NCBI GenBank assembly: GCA_903834765.1
Contig: CAILKE010000055.1
Coordinates: forward strand, 1-64,000
Source: an uncultured Bacteroidota bacterium
Lineage (GTDB): Bacteria; Bacteroidota; Bacteroidia; B-17B0; Aurantibacillaceae
Length of the DNA stretch: 64,000 nt
Direction: 5' to 3'
Below are positions 2,054 through 59,343 of the stretch, piece by piece. Both the position numbers and the translations under genes were made by a program. The notes below the pieces were generated by a model, which did not search any database, had not been told where the DNA came from, and was given only the letters and a program-made list of their open reading frames with translations. Position 1 is the stretch's first letter. Each line of letters opens with the position of its first letter.

Positions 2054-5000
2054 TTATTTAAACATACTAATAAACCCTTGTTGTTTATATTCTTTAGAAT
2101 CTAAACCTTTCGCCTCTAAAACATAAAAATAGGTGCCGTCTGAATATCCACCGCCATCCCAATAATCTGTAGGATTTGATATTGTATACAATTTTAAGCC
2201 CCAACGATTATATATATAACATTTTAATTCACTTATACCTTTTGTATGTATACTAAATACGTCATTTAAGCCATCACCATTAGGGGTAAATACATTTGGT
2301 ACTTCTACAAATGAATTTTCAAGCACCTCTATACTTATTGTTGAGGTTGCAGAACATAATCCAGTGGCATCGGTTGTTATTAATGTAACTATATATACAC
2401 CTGTTGTTGTATAAGTATGTGTTGGATCTGCAGATGAAGAGGTATTGTTATTATTATCTCCAAATGCCCATGAATAATTTAAAGTACCATTTGTTTGATT
2501 TGAAAAGTTAACTAATAACGGTGCCGCTCCTGATATAGGATTAGCGGTTAATCCCCCAGTTATAAAAGTTTGAGTAACAGTTGATACCATTGAACTCACA
2601 CATCCATTAATTAAATCTGTAGCAGTTACAGTATAAATTCCTGTTGATCCAACTTGTGCCGTAGCTGTTCCATTTGATAATAGTGTACCATTTGTAGTAG
2701 TCCAACTATAAGATACGTTATTAGTTGATGTTGCAATGACATTAACTGAAGACGAATAACATGGAATAATAGCATTATTTGCAATTAAATTTGGAGCTAT
2801 AGTATTACTTAATAAATTATAGGTTGCAAGAGTTGTACATCCATTTACAGTATTAAGAACAACAACTGAATATGTATTTGCACTTGTTGCATTAATAGAT
2901 GAACCACCTCCTCCTGGCAGCCATGTATATGAGTAAGAAGAACTAGGCGTTACGCTAGCTGTTAATGTTACAGAAGGATTAGAGCATGTAATAATACTAT
3001 TAGAGGATGTTGCACTAATAGAAGCCGATGGAATATTAGAATTTGAAATGATTTGAGTGGTTGCAGTATTTGTACAACCATTACTAGCATCTGTAACTGT
3101 TACTGAATAAATGTTAGCTTGATTAACTACTACAGAATTTGTTCCTTGACCAGAAATTGGAGTAGATGTCCAAGTATATGTTAATCCACTAGTTGGCAAT
3201 GTGGTTAAGGTTATAACTGCTGTTGGATTTGCACAAGTTATTGTTTGAGTTGGAGTAATATTAATTGTTGGCTGTGTATTATTTATAGTAACATTTACTT
3301 GTGTGATTGTTGAGCAATTTGTAATTGCATTAGTTACTGTACAAGTATAAGTACCAATAGTAGTAAATGAAGCCACTGCTCCTCCTAAAGATTGAGATGC
3401 TGGCGCAGCGCTCCAAGAGTAGGTTACGCTAGTGCTTGGAATACTTGTTACTGTTGCAGTTTGAGATGAAGTAACACAATTTAAAACTAATGAATTTGAA
3501 GATACTGCAACTATAGGCCCTGTTGTATTTGAAAATACTTGAACAGTTGATGAATTAACACAGCCATTGATTGGATCTGTTGCTGTTAATGTATATATCC
3601 CTATTGAGCAAGCTTGAGTATTGATGTTATTAGTCGCACCACACAATCCTGGTCCTGTCCAATTTATTGTAGGATTTATTGGTGAAGTTACATTTCCATT
3701 TAATGTTACAGATGGTGAAATACAGGTTATAGTTTGATTAGTTCCAGCACTTAGAACTGGAATAACTGTATTTTGAGTTACAGCTGTTGTAGTGATATAA
3801 CTGCATCCATTTGTAGGATCAATAATTGATAATGTATAATCTCCAACACCATTTGCTGATGTTGTTTGCGAATTAACAGTTGTGATACTTCCTCCAGGAG
3901 GCGCAGACCATGTATAATTCATTCCTGCAAGTGTTGAATTTAATATGACAGAAGAATTATTACAAGTTAACACGCCTGCTGTAGTTGCTGTAGATGTTGG
4001 AACTGCTGTATTATTTGAAACCGAAACTTGAATTGTAGAAACACAATTAGAAACAGTGTTTGTAACCGTACAAATATAATTGCCTGAGTTTGTAAAGCTT
4101 GCAATAGTGTTATTGGCTGATAAACTAGAAGGCGTTAAATTCCAATTATATGTTAAATCAGTAGATGGAATACCAGATACCGTTACTGTTTGAATTGCCG
4201 TATTACAATCTAAAGATAATGAATTAGACGTTACTGCTATAGTTGGAGCACCCACAGCGGGTAGTACCTGAACAGTTGATGAAGTTACGCAACCATTTGC
4301 TGCATTTGTTGCAGATAATGTATAAATAGTACTTACACTTGGACAAACAGTAGGAGTAAGACTAGAGCCACCTGTCATTGAAGTATTTGGCGACCACGTA
4401 TATGAACTCGCTGCTACAGTTCCAGAACTGGTAGTTACATTGGTGAAATTTAACGTCCAGTTTAATAAAGTTCCAACATCACCTCCTGCATCATCGGTTA
4501 CCTGTAATTGCCAAGCTCCGTTTGGAGTGCAACCATTCAAATTTGATAATGGGCCACCCTGAGGAATATAGCCTGTGGCTGAACTAAATGGAGCTGCACC
4601 AGCAGTAATAACTTGAGCAGACGTTAAATTAAAACAAGTATTTGTATAATTATTATTTAGACTTCCGTTATCAGCAGTAAGAAGCAATGAAATTCCTCCT
4701 GGACAAATTAAAGTAATATCTAAATCTGCATCAAAAGTATGATTGATATTTAAGCAAACAGATGTTAGAGAAGCAGATGTTAGACCAGTTGTATTAATAG
4801 ATGATGTTATTGTTGAAACATCGGGAATAGGAGTAGAAGTAGAATTTGTAAAAGATGGAGTAGTGGTAACTGTGATAGATGAACTTTGATACGCTTGCCC
4901 AAATAATTCAGTACAAGTGGCTGGGCAAATAGGTGCAACGCTAGATATATTAACTGTTGGAGTTGGTTGTATTGAAACTACTTGAGTAAGTGTATTTAAA

Positions 5001-28460: not shown

Positions 28461-29246
28461 TTATGGTCTTGGGAACATCTTATCTAGCAAGGTATCGCGG
28501 AACTTACGTGGAAGCAATTTGCTTAATATCACTAAACTATTTACATCACCTGAAGGAACAATTAAATATTTTTTATGCCCTTGTGCTTGGTTTAAAATTT
28601 TAGCTGCTACGTCTTCTGCTTTCATGGTTTTACGAGGCGAGCCTGTTTTCATCCAAGCTGGAGAGTTTTTAACTTCTTCGTGAAACTGCGGTGTATCCAT
28701 ATCGCCAGGTGTTGCAGTATATACATTAATGCCTTTGCTTAATAATTCGCGACGAAGAGATTCGCCAAAATTAATGATGCCGGCTTTAGCAGCGCAGTAC
28801 ATTGAATATCCTGCAGCTCCCATTAATCCAAAGCCAGAAGAAATCATTAATACTTTTGAACCTGATTTCAATAACGGTAAAAATATGTGAGCTGATAAAA
28901 TAGTACCCCACAAATCCACTTCTAAATCCTGTTTCATTTCGGCACCACTGGTGTAATCAGAAACTAATTTAGTCGTTACACTTCCAGCATTTAAAACTAA
29001 GTAATCAATGTTTGTAAACTCTGTTTTTACTTGACTGGCAGCTTCTTTTAAGCCTACTTCATTAGTAATGTCACAAGAAATACCTTTTGCTGTAACACCC
29101 ATTGCTTTTAAAGATTCAACTGCTTTGTTAATTTTTTCTTGATTACGTGCTATAATAACTACGTTGTAACCTTGCTTGCCTAAGTTTTGAGCCAATGCCA
29201 ATCCTAATCCTGAAGAGCCTCCTGTAACTAATGCTGTTTTTTTCAT
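28461..29246 (-). CDS. SDR oxidoreductase, 3-ketodihydrosphingosine reductase-like
   Basis: This 261-residue classical short-chain dehydrogenase has the cofactor motif TGGSSGLG at 8-15, NAG at 86-88, catalytic Ser136/137, and Tyr150 and Lys154 in MYCAAK. The post-catalytic stretch TATPGDMDTPQFHEE resembles the PPDTDTPGF-type segment of 3-ketosphinganine reductases. A positively charged C-terminus (KLLPRKFRDTLLDKMFPRP) also fits. The expected reaction is NADPH reduction of a 3-keto sphingoid base, or of the related capnine precursor. It lies 16 bp downstream of an alpha-oxoamine synthase gene, whose product is exactly the expected substrate; this context is the main reason for the call. Confidence 0.8.
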   Translation of the reverse strand: MKKTALVTGGSSGLGLALAQNLGKQGYNVVIIARNQEKINKAVESLKAMGVTAKGISCDITNEVGLKEAASQVKTEFTNIDYLVLNAGSVTTKLVSDYTSGAEMKQDLEVDLWGTILSAHIFLPLLKSGSKVLMISSGFGLMGAAGYSMYCAAKAGIINFGESLRRELLSKGINVYTATPGDMDTPQFHEEVKNSPAWMKTGSPRKTMKAEDVAAKILNQAQGHKKYLIVPSGDVNSLVILSKLLPRKFRDTLLDKMFPRP

Positions 29247-29262
29247 AAAGTATGATCCTATG

Positions 29263-30567
29263 TTATTTTAATAAAAAATCGAATTTCTCAGCTGCTTTAA
29301 TAATCACGTCAGCTGCTTTTTGTAATTGTTCGTGTGTGTGTTCGGATGTGATGAACATACGGATACGCGCTTCGTTACGAGGAACCGCAGGGAATTGAAT
29401 GATGCTTGTATCTAAACCGGCACGTTGTAAAAAATCGTTTAATCCTAAAGTTTTACTTTCTGCACCAAAATGAACAATAACAACCCATGCATCACCCTCA
29501 CTTAATTTTACTTTACCTTCCAATAAACCTCTGAAAAAAGTAGCATTTGATTTTAAACGTTTTCTTCTTTCGTCGCCTAATGGCCCGTTAGCTAATTCAA
29601 TTACTTTAACCATTCCGCCTGTAACAGCAGGATCTAGAGCGCAAGAGAACATACGGCATCTTGCATACCAGTTCATGTATTTAATAATTTCTTTTTTTGC
29701 ATATACAGCACCACCAACACCTCCAAAGGCTTTACTAAACGTCATCACGTATAAATCAACATCAGCTAACACGCCTTGTTGTTCACATACGCCGCGACCG
29801 TTATCGCCTGCCACTAAAGCCGAGTGAGCTTCATCCACTAAGGTAAATGCTCCGTATTGTTTTGCTAATCTAACTACTTCTTTTAAATTTCCGTAATCGC
29901 CATCACCACTATAAATTCCTTCAACACAAATTAATACACGGGTAAAATCATCGCACTTCTCTTTTAATAATTCTTCTAAATGAGCCATATCATTATGTCT
30001 GAAAAATGACATTTCTCCTCCAGATAATTTAGCACCTTCTACAATTGACATGTGAGAATTAGCATCCATAATGACTTGATGACCAGGTTTAATAAATGCT
30101 GAAATAGCCCCTAAATTAACACTGTATCCAGCTGTAAATAAAGAAACACCTCTATCTGGTAAATCAAAAAACTTCTCTAGAGCTTGCTCTAATTGTTTAT
30201 GAATTGTGTAGGTGCCACTGATAACAGGCGAACTAGAAGCACCCAAACCATATTTTGCAACTGCATCTTGGGCTGCTTTAATAACATCAGGATGATAACT
30301 GAATCCTAAATAATTATAACTTGATAAATTTACGACATGAACAATTTCTCCATTTTCGCGAGCTAAATCTGTTTCAGTAGTTTGTGTGCCTGAACGAGCA
30401 GCTTCAAATGTGTACATTTTTTTTTCATTTAATGTATCTACATATTCAGAAAATAATTCCATTTCTTCTAAATCAGCCGACATGTTCATCATAAACATAT
30501 CATACGTGTAACTAGAATAATTTTCTTTAACATGTTTAACTAAGCTTTCATCAAGAGTATTTGCCAT
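29263..30567 (-). CDS. alpha-oxoamine synthase, serine-palmitoyltransferase-like
   Basis: The 434-residue PLP enzyme of fold type I condenses an amino acid with an acyl thioester and loses CO2. His172 (NSHMS) would stack on PLP, Asp245 and His248 are in VDEAHS, and the internal aldimine Lys279 is in MTFSKAFGGVGG. The N-terminal 60 residues are longer than in KBL or BioF, as in bacterial serine palmitoyltransferases. Serine (giving 3-ketosphinganine) or cysteate (giving the sulfonolipid base) are both possible; the sequence alone does not decide. An acyl carrier protein encoded two genes upstream suggests an acyl-ACP donor, as known for the Caulobacter enzyme. Confidence 0.85.
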   Translation of the reverse strand: MANTLDESLVKHVKENYSSYTYDMFMMNMSADLEEMELFSEYVDTLNEKKMYTFEAARSGTQTTETDLARENGEIVHVVNLSSYNYLGFSYHPDVIKAAQDAVAKYGLGASSSPVISGTYTIHKQLEQALEKFFDLPDRGVSLFTAGYSVNLGAISAFIKPGHQVIMDANSHMSIVEGAKLSGGEMSFFRHNDMAHLEELLKEKCDDFTRVLICVEGIYSGDGDYGNLKEVVRLAKQYGAFTLVDEAHSALVAGDNGRGVCEQQGVLADVDLYVMTFSKAFGGVGGAVYAKKEIIKYMNWYARCRMFSCALDPAVTGGMVKVIELANGPLGDERRKRLKSNATFFRGLLEGKVKLSEGDAWVVIVHFGAESKTLGLNDFLQRAGLDTSIIQFPAVPRNEARIRMFITSEHTHEQLQKAADVIIKAAEKFDFLLK

Positions 30568-30595
30568 AATTAGTTGATTTTTATAGTTAGTATAA

Positions 30596-30630
30596 TTTAA
30601 AAATCCAACTATGTTAGTTGGATTTTTAAA
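30596..30630 (-). terminator. strong intergenic hairpin between SDR and oxoamine synthase genes
   Basis: A 16-bp perfect stem (30596-30611 with 30615-30630; core AAATCCAACTA / TAGTTGGATTT) has a 3-base loop TGT. On the minus strand the stem ends in a T-rich run, so it can act as a terminator or attenuator after the SDR gene. The oxoamine synthase ATG is 29 bp beyond it. Confidence 0.75.
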
Positions 30631-30637
30631 ATTTTTA

Positions 30638-31462
30638 TTATGCTGTTTTTAATTTCTTTTTTTGTGATCTAGTATAGATTTCCATTAAATTATCGAAGAA
30701 GCTGGTTCCTTTATCAACAGTGATAATTTGTCCGCTAATGGTGTCACAGTAACCAGAGCATAATCCAACAATTGCTTCCGCTAATTCTATTGGTTCAATC
30801 CAGTAATTGTCAGGCACATATTTAGCGGCAAATTCAACTAAATCTTTTCCAAAGGTGTTTTCAAATAATTTAGTTTTAATGGCACGCGAACGAACAGCAT
30901 TTATAACCACACCATGCTTTCGTAAACGAAAGTTAATGTATTTTACAAACACTTCCATTACAGTTTTTGAAGCCGCTACATAATCGTAACCTATCGAATA
31001 GTTTACAGGTCCTGTAGAAGAAACACCCATAATGTATTTAGGATATTTACCAAATGTATTAAAGATCTCTTTAGTGTAAGACACCATAGGGAAACTTGAA
31101 TACGAAATGCTTTGTTTCAATCCTTTTAAGGTATAATCTTCAAAAGCATTAATTACCATGGCTCCCGATACATTACTGATAAAAATATCAATACCTGTAA
31201 AGCCTTGTGATTTTAACTCTTGTAATAATGCTTTTGTATCTTCGTTTTTAGAAACGTCGGCATTTAAATAAATAGGTTTCAATGCTTTTTTCTCTGCAAA
31301 TGCAGCATTGATAGCAGCTTCATCATGGTCGCCCCAATTATAAGTTAATACACATTGAGCACCTCTTTTACCAAAAGATAAGCCTGTTTCTAAACCTATA
31401 CCTCTTGTGCCACCAGTAATAAGCACTACTTTGCCTGTAAAATCTAAAAAAGAATCAGTCAT
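30638..31462 (-). CDS. FabL-like SDR (enoyl-ACP-reductase type), copy 1
   Basis: The product is a 274-residue short-chain dehydrogenase. The cofactor motif TGGTRGIG is at 17-24. The catalytic pair is spaced Tyr159-x6-Lys166 (YDYVAASK), the spacing of enoyl-ACP reductases FabI and FabL, not the classical YxxxK. The C-terminal SGQIITVDKG also resembles FabL. ISNVSG replaces the usual NNAG. It is about 40-45 percent alike by eye to the plus-strand gene at 32703 over the central region (SISYSSFPMVSYT against SIEYSCWPMVEYT). It probably reduces an ACP-bound enoyl or keto intermediate. It lies 8 bp downstream of the ACP gene, so they are translated as one unit. Confidence 0.75.
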   Translation of the reverse strand: MTDSFLDFTGKVVLITGGTRGIGLETGLSFGKRGAQCVLTYNWGDHDEAAINAAFAEKKALKPIYLNADVSKNEDTKALLQELKSQGFTGIDIFISNVSGAMVINAFEDYTLKGLKQSISYSSFPMVSYTKEIFNTFGKYPKYIMGVSSTGPVNYSIGYDYVAASKTVMEVFVKYINFRLRKHGVVINAVRSRAIKTKLFENTFGKDLVEFAAKYVPDNYWIEPIELAEAIVGLCSGYCDTISGQIITVDKGTSFFDNLMEIYTRSQKKKLKTA

Positions 31463-33582: not shown

Positions 33583-34179
33583 TTACACGACATGTACTTG
33601 GTGTGGATCGGTGTATGGTTGCTCATCGTCGTGCACAATTGCTTTTACCCTAAACCAATACTTGTTGCCAGCCGTTAAGCCTGTTACCAAATAACTTGTG
33701 TTATTAGTAATTTTAAGTTGGCTCCATGTATTTTGGTTAATTGGATCCGCTACCATTTCCCAAACATAAGCAGCATGGCTTCCCGCATACGGCGATACCA
33801 AATCAACTGTACCACTTAACGAACCCTGAGTTGCATTAAACGTTTTGGGAGTTATAGCGGTAGCTTGTTTTAAACTAAAACCACTACTGGTTGCTACCAT
33901 GTCGTTATTATTACACTCTAATTCCACTGCTCCCTTAATCGCGATAAGCACTTTTATGACGTAATTTTGTGCGTCTTTTATCGCTACTGTATCAGGATGT
34001 GCGGCGTGTATAGCATTATGCAATGCGACTTTACCAGCAGATAGTAAGGGTAAGTATGTTGTAGCCGAATTATTGAGGGCGGCATTTCCCGTTAAGCCAA
34101 TTTCAATTGTGTTGGCTAACACTTCTACCCCGCTGGGGTCTAGTCCGTTAATTCCAAGGACTAATTTAGTTTGTCTCAT
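33583..34179 (-). CDS. fibronectin type III domain protein with helical N-terminal domain
   Basis: The product has 198 residues from the ATG at 34179 (an upstream in-frame ATG at 34263 gives an unlikely basic extension). There is no signal peptide or membrane segment. Residues of about 1-95 are predicted helical (GLDPSGVEVLANTIEIGL..., SAGKVALHNAIHAAHPDTVAIKDAQNYV). Residues of about 105-195 form an Fn3 fold (AYVWEMVADPINQNTWSQLKI, TAGNKYWFRVKAIV). I do not know a function. It is the gene directly downstream of the 20-bp-periodic array on the minus strand, with its leader in 34180-34440. Whether this domain pair travels with the array in other genomes is worth testing. Confidence 0.8.
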   Translation of the reverse strand: MRQTKLVLGINGLDPSGVEVLANTIEIGLTGNAALNNSATTYLPLLSAGKVALHNAIHAAHPDTVAIKDAQNYVIKVLIAIKGAVELECNNNDMVATSSGFSLKQATAITPKTFNATQGSLSGTVDLVSPYAGSHAAYVWEMVADPINQNTWSQLKITNNTSYLVTGLTAGNKYWFRVKAIVHDDEQPYTDPHQVHVV

Positions 34180-34440
34180 TGTATTAGATTTTTTGTCTCC
34201 GCTAAACTTAGCAAAGAGTGTTTTTTTAATTATTAAATTAATGCATCTCTGATGAGTAAACAAGTGAGACGATGCTGAGCGACTTGTAGTAATTTTTTTG
34301 TTTTATAAATTACTAATGTTGTTTCTGACTATTATAACGAGCAACATTTGAAAATGTTACTCCTTTTAACACCCTTTAACAGCAGTACTTTGTAACTGGT
34401 TAGTTTTAGCGTATAAGTGGTAATTTTTTTTGAGATTTAG
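34180..34440. other. leader region between Fn3 gene and the periodic array
   Basis: No gene is supported here. Two hairpins are visible: TAGTAATTT (34287-34295) with AAATTACTA (34307-34315), and GAGCAACATTT (34339-34349) with AAATGTTACTC (34352-34362), which has one mismatch. Both are AT-rich and could be operators or weak terminators of a transcript from the array side. Confidence 0.45.
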
Positions 34441-34840
34441 TTTTATGCACGGAGCGACAACTTTATGAACAACATTTATACTTGATGCATGAAATTGTAA
34501 GTTTATGCACAGAGCTATAATTTTATGTATAGAAATTTTACTACATGCATACATTTAAACCGTTACGCATAAAAACAAACCTTTATGTAAATTGGTGCAG
34601 GTTTATGCATAGAATTACAACTTTATGCACAACGGAGTGCCTTTATGTATAAAAGTTGCCGTTTATACACAGAGTTGAATTTTTATGCATAAAAATTTAT
34701 GTTCATGCACAAATACTTTGTATTGTGTTTTTCTACTCAACTTTATGCATAACGTAATTTTGTAATGCACAGCGGTGGAACTTTATGCATAAAACACTGC
34801 TTATATGCACAAAATCCTCATCTTGTGCATAAGATGAGGA
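34441..34840. repeat. phased array of 20 units, exact 20-bp period, core TTTATGCAYA
   Basis: Read in 20-bp steps from 34441, every step opens with a version of the same core and continues with unrelated bases, without any insertion or deletion across 400 bp. Counting the 20 units by position: T at 2 in 16, T at 3 in 18, T at 4 in 16, A at 5 in 18, T at 6 in 19, G at 7 in 19, C at 8 in 15, A at 9 in 19, C or T at 10 in 19, A at 11 in 17, purine at 12 in 17. Positions 13-19 show no agreement. Three units (34681, 34741, 34781) contain the perfect palindrome TTATGCATAA. Only unit 15 (34721) is badly degenerate. Twenty bases is not a multiple of three and both strands are rich in stops, so it is non-coding. 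No cas genes are near. Confidence 0.95.
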
Positions 34841-34843
34841 TTT
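34812..34843. terminator. hairpin built around the last array unit
   Basis: AAATCCTCATCTT (34812-34824) and AAGATGAGGATTT (34831-34843) form a perfect 13-bp stem whose 6-base loop GTGCAT is the core of unit 20. It may end the minus-strand transcript of the lipoprotein gene (stop at 34892), because T-rich bases follow on that strand, or it may mark the array end. Confidence 0.7.
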
Positions 34844-34891: not shown

Positions 34892-35635
34892 CTACTTAAA
34901 TTTTATATTAGTTTTTACAACTTCATAGCCCGTGCGAAAATTATAATTTTTTCCATTAATCACTTGCACATTGTTTTTATAAAAATTAATAATCAGCGCT
35001 ACTGTATTACCTGCGCCAATCGTTGACAAATCAGAGGCTGTGAAACTTAATGTAGTAGGATTATTGGTTAATTTTTGAATGGTTGTTGTAATTGAAGTAC
35101 CTGTCATAGTACCAAAATATACCTCTACCATATCAGCACCGCTGTAATTAGTTAAGGGAATAGAAATACCACTTGCTATCACAAAAGAATCGGCAATAGC
35201 CGAATAGCCAGTGTAAATAGGATAAGGAGTTGTATTAGAAAAACTAAAACTTGGTACGGCGGTAGAACCTGAAATTATCCAATTATGTGGCGTATTATAG
35301 GTACTTGTTGTTGAATCGCCATAATAATATTGCACTCCATAAGCATTTTTCTGAAAGGTTGTTCCGTTTAAACTTACCGCTCCCATATCTAACAAAGAGC
35401 CTACTAATGGATCATCGTTAATTAATGGAGTATTGGACACATAGGCATTACTAAAATTAGACTGATTACTAACTAAGGTATTAGTAATGATAACTCCTTT
35501 ACGACTTGAAAATACAGCATAATTACCTGTAGGTGTGCCACCACCACCTCCCGTATTTGTAGGCGCAGGTGTTTCAGTTTTTTTGCAAGCAATCAGGCTT
35601 AATAAGCCTATACATAAGATGGAAATTTTTTTCAT
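34892..35635 (-). CDS. lipoprotein of unknown function, paralogue of the next gene
   Basis: The product has 247 residues with a lipoprotein signal (MKKISILCIGLLSLIAC, Cys17) and a Gly-rich linker (about 29-38). The mature part is beta-rich with many Ser, Thr and Asn. The second half matches the neighbouring gene at 35647: NWIISGSTAVPSFSF against HWKVTGYSAIPSMNF, and NGKNYNFRTGYEVVKTNI against AGKKYLFRNMFSFVKTGI. I do not recognise the family. Membrane attachment through the lipid is likely, with display in the periplasm or at the surface. It is the last gene of a short minus-strand run and faces the 20-bp array. Confidence 0.75.
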   Translation of the reverse strand: MKKISILCIGLLSLIACKKTETPAPTNTGGGGGTPTGNYAVFSSRKGVIITNTLVSNQSNFSNAYVSNTPLINDDPLVGSLLDMGAVSLNGTTFQKNAYGVQYYYGDSTTSTYNTPHNWIISGSTAVPSFSFSNTTPYPIYTGYSAIADSFVIASGISIPLTNYSGADMVEVYFGTMTGTSITTTIQKLTNNPTTLSFTASDLSTIGAGNTVALIINFYKNNVQVINGKNYNFRTGYEVVKTNIKFK

Positions 35636-59253: not shown

Positions 59254-59281
59254 TTTGAACATAACTTTTGAATTAATTTTG
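59254..59281 (+). promoter_or_regulatory. candidate promoter of the HtrA gene
   Basis: TAATTTTG at 59274-59281 fits the -7 element TAnnTTTG and TTTG at 59254-59257 could be the -33 element. The 16-base spacer is shorter than the usual 19-21, so the pair is weaker than those of rpsU and rpoD. It lies 63 bp before the ATG. Confidence 0.45.
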
Positions 59282-59343
59282 CGTTATAAATCTAAATTAC
59301 AATCAATCTAAATTTTCAGTAACCATTTAAATTAATACAAAAA

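Follow-up and report, generated by a model that had tools for sequence, protein, structure and literature searches.

An array of 20 units repeating at an exact 20-bp period lies upstream of a small protein gene in the window (the whole 64,000-nucleotide stretch of DNA analysed, from an uncultured Bacteroidota bacterium), and its comparison with related arrays points to a bacterial control element of a class so far undescribed. We give a probability of roughly 0.55 to the reading in which this class is defined by geometry and not by sequence: 10-25 units would stand exactly two, three or four helix turns apart, the palindromic units being locus-specific and turning over freely, and the arrays would accompany at least two Bacteroidota families of small, apparently cytosolic helical-bundle/beta-sandwich proteins, controlling them as one in-phase complex. 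Whether the window array itself is the cis-regulatory half of an in-phase, cooperative operator-like array controlling its downstream gene is, in our judgement, an even bet. The features of the locus are as follows.

34441-34840, no strand: array of 20 units of 20 bp, with the plus-strand core TTTATGCAYAAR and a variable spacer; an ortholog is present at locus L217 of a related genome.
34812-34843, no strand: terminator-like inverted repeat with a 13-bp stem, AAATCCTCATCTT/AAGATGAGGATTT, whose arms are 94% complementary; it takes in the last array unit.
34392-34421, minus strand: LytTR-like direct repeat, ACCACTTAT-N12-ACCAGTTAC, 21 bp start to start.
34333-34360, minus strand: ECF-type promoter, GTAACATTT-N12-CGTTATA, its position being conserved in many family leaders.
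33586-34179, minus strand: downstream gene for a 198-aa protein, an N-terminal helical bundle followed by a C-terminal Fn3 domain.
34892-35635, minus strand: upstream gene for a 247-aa lipoprotein-like protein, ending ahead of the hairpin, for which no Pfam family was found.

The initial annotation had described 20 cores at an exact 20-bp period, free of indels and lying in non-coding DNA, and this description proved exact, with zero indels across the 20 units; the related arrays are non-coding too. Unit positions 2-12 read TTTATGCAYA plus A, with T3 and A5 present in 18/20 units, T6, G7 and A9 in 19/20, C or T at position 10 in 19/20, A11 in 17/20 and a purine at position 12 in 17/20. Mean pairwise identity between units reaches 0.70 over columns 2-12 and falls to 0.30 over columns 14-20, close to the background match of 0.285, so that the spacers are truly unrelated or saturated, as had been claimed, and only the cores are alike. 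Set against shuffled DNA, as had been proposed, the 20-bp spacing stands out clearly, the autocorrelation at lag 20 giving a z of 18.8 against a maximum of 4.9 over periods 10-45 in 200 dinucleotide shuffles. The units are also palindromic (dyad p = 0.003). Unit 15 (34721) is highly degenerate, a few further units are weak, and the last one (34821-34840) doubles as the apex of the terminator-like hairpin; altogether it looks like an old array with decayed spacers. Tandem Repeats Finder did not call it, because its units are too diverged, and an Rfam search returned tRNA as the sole match.

Core pairs spaced 20 bp apart are unique to this locus in the 3.6-Mb genome, save for chance-level matches with three mismatches. 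The suggestion that TTTATGCAYA might be a motif spread across Bacteroidota did not survive: only two of 20 genus genomes carry it in tandem, this one (at the window locus alone) and G001, and related arrays use unrelated units. TTTATGCAYA was rejected, on these grounds, as the element itself.

Read along the minus strand, the lipoprotein-like gene ends at 34892 and is followed by the hairpin, the array, the LytTR-like repeat, the ECF-type promoter and the start of the 198-aa gene at 34179. The hairpin probably terminates the upstream gene; in L217 its stem is AACACCTCATTTT/AAAATGAGGTGTT, pairing being retained despite the altered bases. The 198-aa protein model has an AF2 mean pLDDT of 89, and Foldseek matches it to Fn3 domains, Pfam fn3 scoring slightly under its cut-off; no obvious signal peptide was seen by eye. 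The LytTR-like pattern has 10 exact matches genome-wide, while its reversed control gave one match, and still one when a mismatch was allowed; for the ECF-type promoter the genome holds three perfect matches, this one included. The array is absent at seven of the 10 exact LytTR repeats, and other genes of the genome, a GldJ-like one among them, have this promoter with neither LytTR repeat nor array. Neither signal alone thus explains the array, since both occur in this genome without it; in particular, its interpretation as a companion of the ECF promoter class was rejected, as no array accompanies the perfect promoter copies that precede the GldJ-like gene and one other gene. Nor do the array units behave as LytTR sites themselves, a candidate rejected over 87 arrays (mean z -0.07 sense and -0.13 antisense).

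Constraint on the array was evaluated on one ortholog pair, the window locus and L217 (genome G001, a sister species in the same genus), whose contig C217 ends at the leader, ahead of the gene, with the orthologous leader and array both present. The leader is 90% identical between the two species and the array 74%, with 103 substitutions over 400 bp (26% of bases changed). Even so, the 20 units of L217 match those of the window 1:1, with cores starting every 20 bp, the first at 235 and the last at 615; the first 19 units align gap-free and the single gap, of 1 bp, falls in the hairpin unit. The leader, in turn, shows three gap events (including one of 18 bp adjoining the array) per 21 substitutions, a ratio that predicts about 14 indels for the array, and elsewhere the leaders of three paralog pairs, 210-350 bp long, present 9-11 gap openings. 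Spacing therefore appears to be under stronger selection than sequence, 20 units being kept and 19 of them indel-free despite the change of 26% of bases, which bears out the earlier proposal that it is conserved and not the outcome of drift. Between-species identity is 79% in core columns and 69% in spacers (p = 0.03). In this one ortholog pair, constraint is thus strongest on spacing and unit number and weaker on core letters, while spacers drift. That single-base indels were purged throughout 400 bp implies one common register in which the units work. That register must be internal to the array and its phase with the promoter not fixed, given that the array-promoter distance differs by 18 bp between both species, the change lying between array and LytTR site.

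Homologs of the 198-aa gene (family 1) were collected from the genus, the family and beyond, and 62 of the 65 with enough sequence have a non-coding array upstream, mostly 300-1000 bp ahead of the ATG; the count takes in a degenerate copy, L100, whose array is 2.1 kb distant. A second family came to light through a further LytTR locus in this genome (C23:46572); 27 of its 29 members have arrays, the two without them having at most 226 bp of upstream contig. Profile comparison detected no homology between the proteins of the two families, and the models of both place beta strands after helices. From one locus to another the unit letters bear no relation, even inside one genome. Among the loci scanned, fundamental periods were 20 bp (14 loci), 21 (57), 22 (9), 31 (1), 41 (3) and 43 (1), all corresponding to two, three or four helix turns, with none at 23-30 or 32-40. 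Two further loci, probably L081 and L214, scored at 12 and 14 through weak harmonics, other scans giving them periods of 31 and 42. The argument of the initial annotation that neighbouring sites face nearly the same side of the helix is strengthened by these data, about 90 related arrays keeping to whole turns. Outside the locus, 400 kb of this genome yielded no such array; the strong periodic matches there had periods nearly all divisible by three, the pattern expected of coding repeats. For 30 of 62 family loci, a LytTR-type pair located between the array and the ATG outscores 40 shuffled versions; in roughly half of the arrays no pair is detectable.

Two of the loci in this genome depart from the common arrangement. 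L100 (G000:C60:1-4000) is a second, broken family copy in the same genome, with a TAG in its frame (positions 2911-3279); its 21/42-bp array, at about 766-1030, lies ~2.1 kb upstream, past two glycosyltransferase-like genes. At L166 (G000:C21, near 4853), a triple LytTR repeat and a 21-bp array have no helical/Fn3 gene behind them, being followed by a short stretch with a terminator and then by a universal-stress-protein-like gene.

Array letters turn over with protein divergence, sharing of 9-mers being frequent for protein pairs at least 60% identical and at background level below. With its 77%-identical relative L026, the window array has 18 9-mers in common on the opposite strand and four on the same strand; because the core is thus mainly on opposite strands, array orientation relative to the gene is not fixed. 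In genome G031, the 0.8 Mb covered contains further 21-bp arrays outside both families (L241:7453, L243:4543, L248:246 and L253:7896), one of these orphans lying between convergent genes. Two of these arrays, one ahead of a TPR protein gene and the other ahead of a HipA-like kinase gene, have units common to family arrays, and their alignments with same-genome family arrays at different genes are mostly gap-free. As far as these alignments go, such sharing may reflect a sequence-specific reader serving two loci, and recent array copying would fit equally.

These observations are, in our judgement, best accounted for by a mechanism in which 10-25 imperfectly palindromic sites resembling operators, spaced by exactly two helix turns (at some loci three or four), would each be occupied by one dimeric DNA-binding protein, on nearly the same helix face and with neighbours touching. 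The sites together would form one in-phase cooperative filament or wrapped complex, which may switch or silence the promoter downstream, in the window the LytTR repeat and ECF-type promoter. Each locus or lineage would have its own unit sequence and its own reader protein, and the arrays would be born by tandem amplification and then drift, only spacing and core being kept. Amplification does create arrays, since many relatives (e.g., L063, L093 and L109) are near-uniform tandem repeats. Palindromic sites at whole-turn spacing, the arrangement of cooperative operator arrays, are indeed what was observed. Tested against column permutation, dyad symmetry gives a mean z of 1.8 in family 1, with p<0.05 in 45% of arrays (mirror control 0.0 and 10%), and of 2.7 in family 2, with p<0.05 in 68% (mirror control 0.1 and 16%), the excess in consensus units being smaller under a stricter dinucleotide null (mean z 0.7 versus -0.1). 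The weakest point of the mechanism is the number of readers it needs, unit letters being unrelated between loci, and the arrays whose surroundings were inspected had no regulator gene as a regular neighbour. Also against it stand the modest core constraint between species (79% versus 69%), the shift in array-promoter distance, LytTR repeats without array, arrays without LytTR pair, and the orphans of G031.

The main rival, which we regard as rather unlikely, is a structural element independent of sequence, in which whole-turn repeats would add static bends in phase, letters being irrelevant, and offer curved or wrap-prone DNA to an HU-like or histone-like protein. Letters that are free while the period holds at whole helix turns, an array orientation that is not fixed, and periods of 20-22, 31 and 41-43 that fit wrapped DNA at 10.0-11 bp per turn would all agree with it. 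Curvature, however, needs neither core conservation nor palindromy. Moreover, AA/TT power at 10-11 bp does not exceed that of arrays with permuted columns (mean z 0.30 +/- 0.17), nor is A/T content enriched in its second harmonic; A-tract curvature of the arrays was rejected on these grounds. A/T content has a strong third harmonic (7 bp) in family 1 (z 9.4) and none in family 2, and a shared hidden motif, sought by EM alignment of A/T profiles, barely exceeds permuted arrays. Less probable still are non-functional or weakly selected minisatellites, that is, tandem duplications biased to two-turn units that would collect in long intergenic regions. Near-uniform repeats in several arrays, wholesale array replacement between paralogs and the G031 orphans, among them the one between convergent genes, would be natural in such a case; preservation of unit number and register across 26% divergence, cores kept beside saturated spacers, and arrays at 89/94 testable family genes versus none in 400 kb of this genome would not. 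The initial annotation had argued against a duplication-derived minisatellite, which breaks down for the class, where whole-unit similarity is seen in other arrays and many appear duplication-born. The window array itself, with its spacers at background and its 20 units kept, shows neither whole-unit similarity nor, in its ortholog pair, turnover of copy number, and was accordingly set apart from minisatellites and VNTRs.

That the array would instead be transcribed and work at the RNA level, via hairpins or as an untranslated leader, seems very improbable, even though RNA of the arrays folds better than that of arrays with permuted columns (mean z -2.0) and, at L039 (genome G041), in contrast to most loci, the array apparently has an ECF-like promoter on one side and the start codon on the other. 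Folding of the antisense strand is no worse (-2.4), the array is inverted in the 77%-identical relative, and it stands upstream of the promoter in most loci where a promoter is recognisable. No compensatory covariation was found between symmetric positions inside units, which led to rejection of hairpin RNA or cruciform and suits protein half-sites better than hairpins. Palindromy, lack of covariation and similar folding of both strands together point to double-stranded DNA read by a protein dimer. The resemblance of the core to TTATNCACA brings to mind a DnaA-box cluster acting as origin or titration site, a proposal that is barely credible and was rejected: just four TTATNCACA matches occur in the 400-bp array where such a cluster would have many, the commonest core ends in ATA, and sister arrays at homologous genes carry unrelated letters.

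Several known systems resemble the arrays in part. Sites of LytTR regulators (AgrA/ComE type) are 9-bp direct repeats about 21 bp apart, usually in two or three copies; they share with the arrays direct repetition at two turns, and a pair of them is found between the array and the promoter, both here and at roughly half of the family loci, whereas the window array has 20 repeats and array units score as non-LytTR. Plasmid iterons and partition centromeres, such as the 20-bp repeats of pSK41 parC, are tandem units read cooperatively and similarly comprise 20-22 bp units in helical register. The arrays differ from them in lying in promoter regions with a unit that varies by locus, and this assignment was rejected for the window array, which has no adjacent replication or partition gene and is flanked, on a 127-kb contig, by SDR/enoyl-CoA hydratase genes and secreted proteins. 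ARG boxes (ArgR) and met boxes (MetJ) are tandem palindromic operators bound cooperatively, imperfect palindromes at whole-turn spacing as here; they consist of two to few copies of one regulon-wide motif, in contrast with 10-25 copies of a locus-specific one. Iterons, partition sites, ARG boxes and LytTR repeats thus share the geometry yet keep a fixed motif, while minisatellites share the origin and not the constraint. CRISPR arrays have near-identical repeats of about 23-47 bp and unique spacers of similar length; this candidate was rejected given the 20-bp period, the degenerate core of 11-12 bp, the 8-bp spacer and the lack of a cas gene among neighbouring ORFs. Intergenic TAACTGA heptamer direct repeats also occur upstream of genes, some in Bacteroidetes, mostly within several nucleotides of the start codon, and a role in translation has been proposed for them; they differ from the arrays in repeating one fixed heptamer, without a two-turn unit and variable spacer (PMC4679880). 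In agreement with the initial annotation, which knew of no named element of this kind, a literature search of incomplete coverage, and hence mere absence of evidence, found no description of such arrays.

An element of constant geometry would escape motif searches, because these seek shared letters. If real, the class would be a bacterial counterpart of homotypic enhancer clusters, its about 90 natural arrays would constitute an evolutionary test of helical phasing, and it would offer a first entry point to two protein families whose function is unknown, raising the question of which protein reads a site that differs in sequence at every locus.

Two minor observations concern other genes. ECF-type promoters GTAACNTTT-N12-CGTTATA, perfect or with one mismatch, are also found at window positions 59261-59288 and at L122, L123 and L128, where the genes behind them were judged by eye to resemble HtrA protease (window), GldJ (L122) and GldK (L128), with another gene at L123, making an envelope/gliding ECF regulon possible. 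At window positions 28461-31462, an acyl-CoA-dependent aminotransferase-like enzyme of the serine palmitoyltransferase type is clustered with short-chain dehydrogenases, possibly, as judged by eye, for sphingolipid synthesis.
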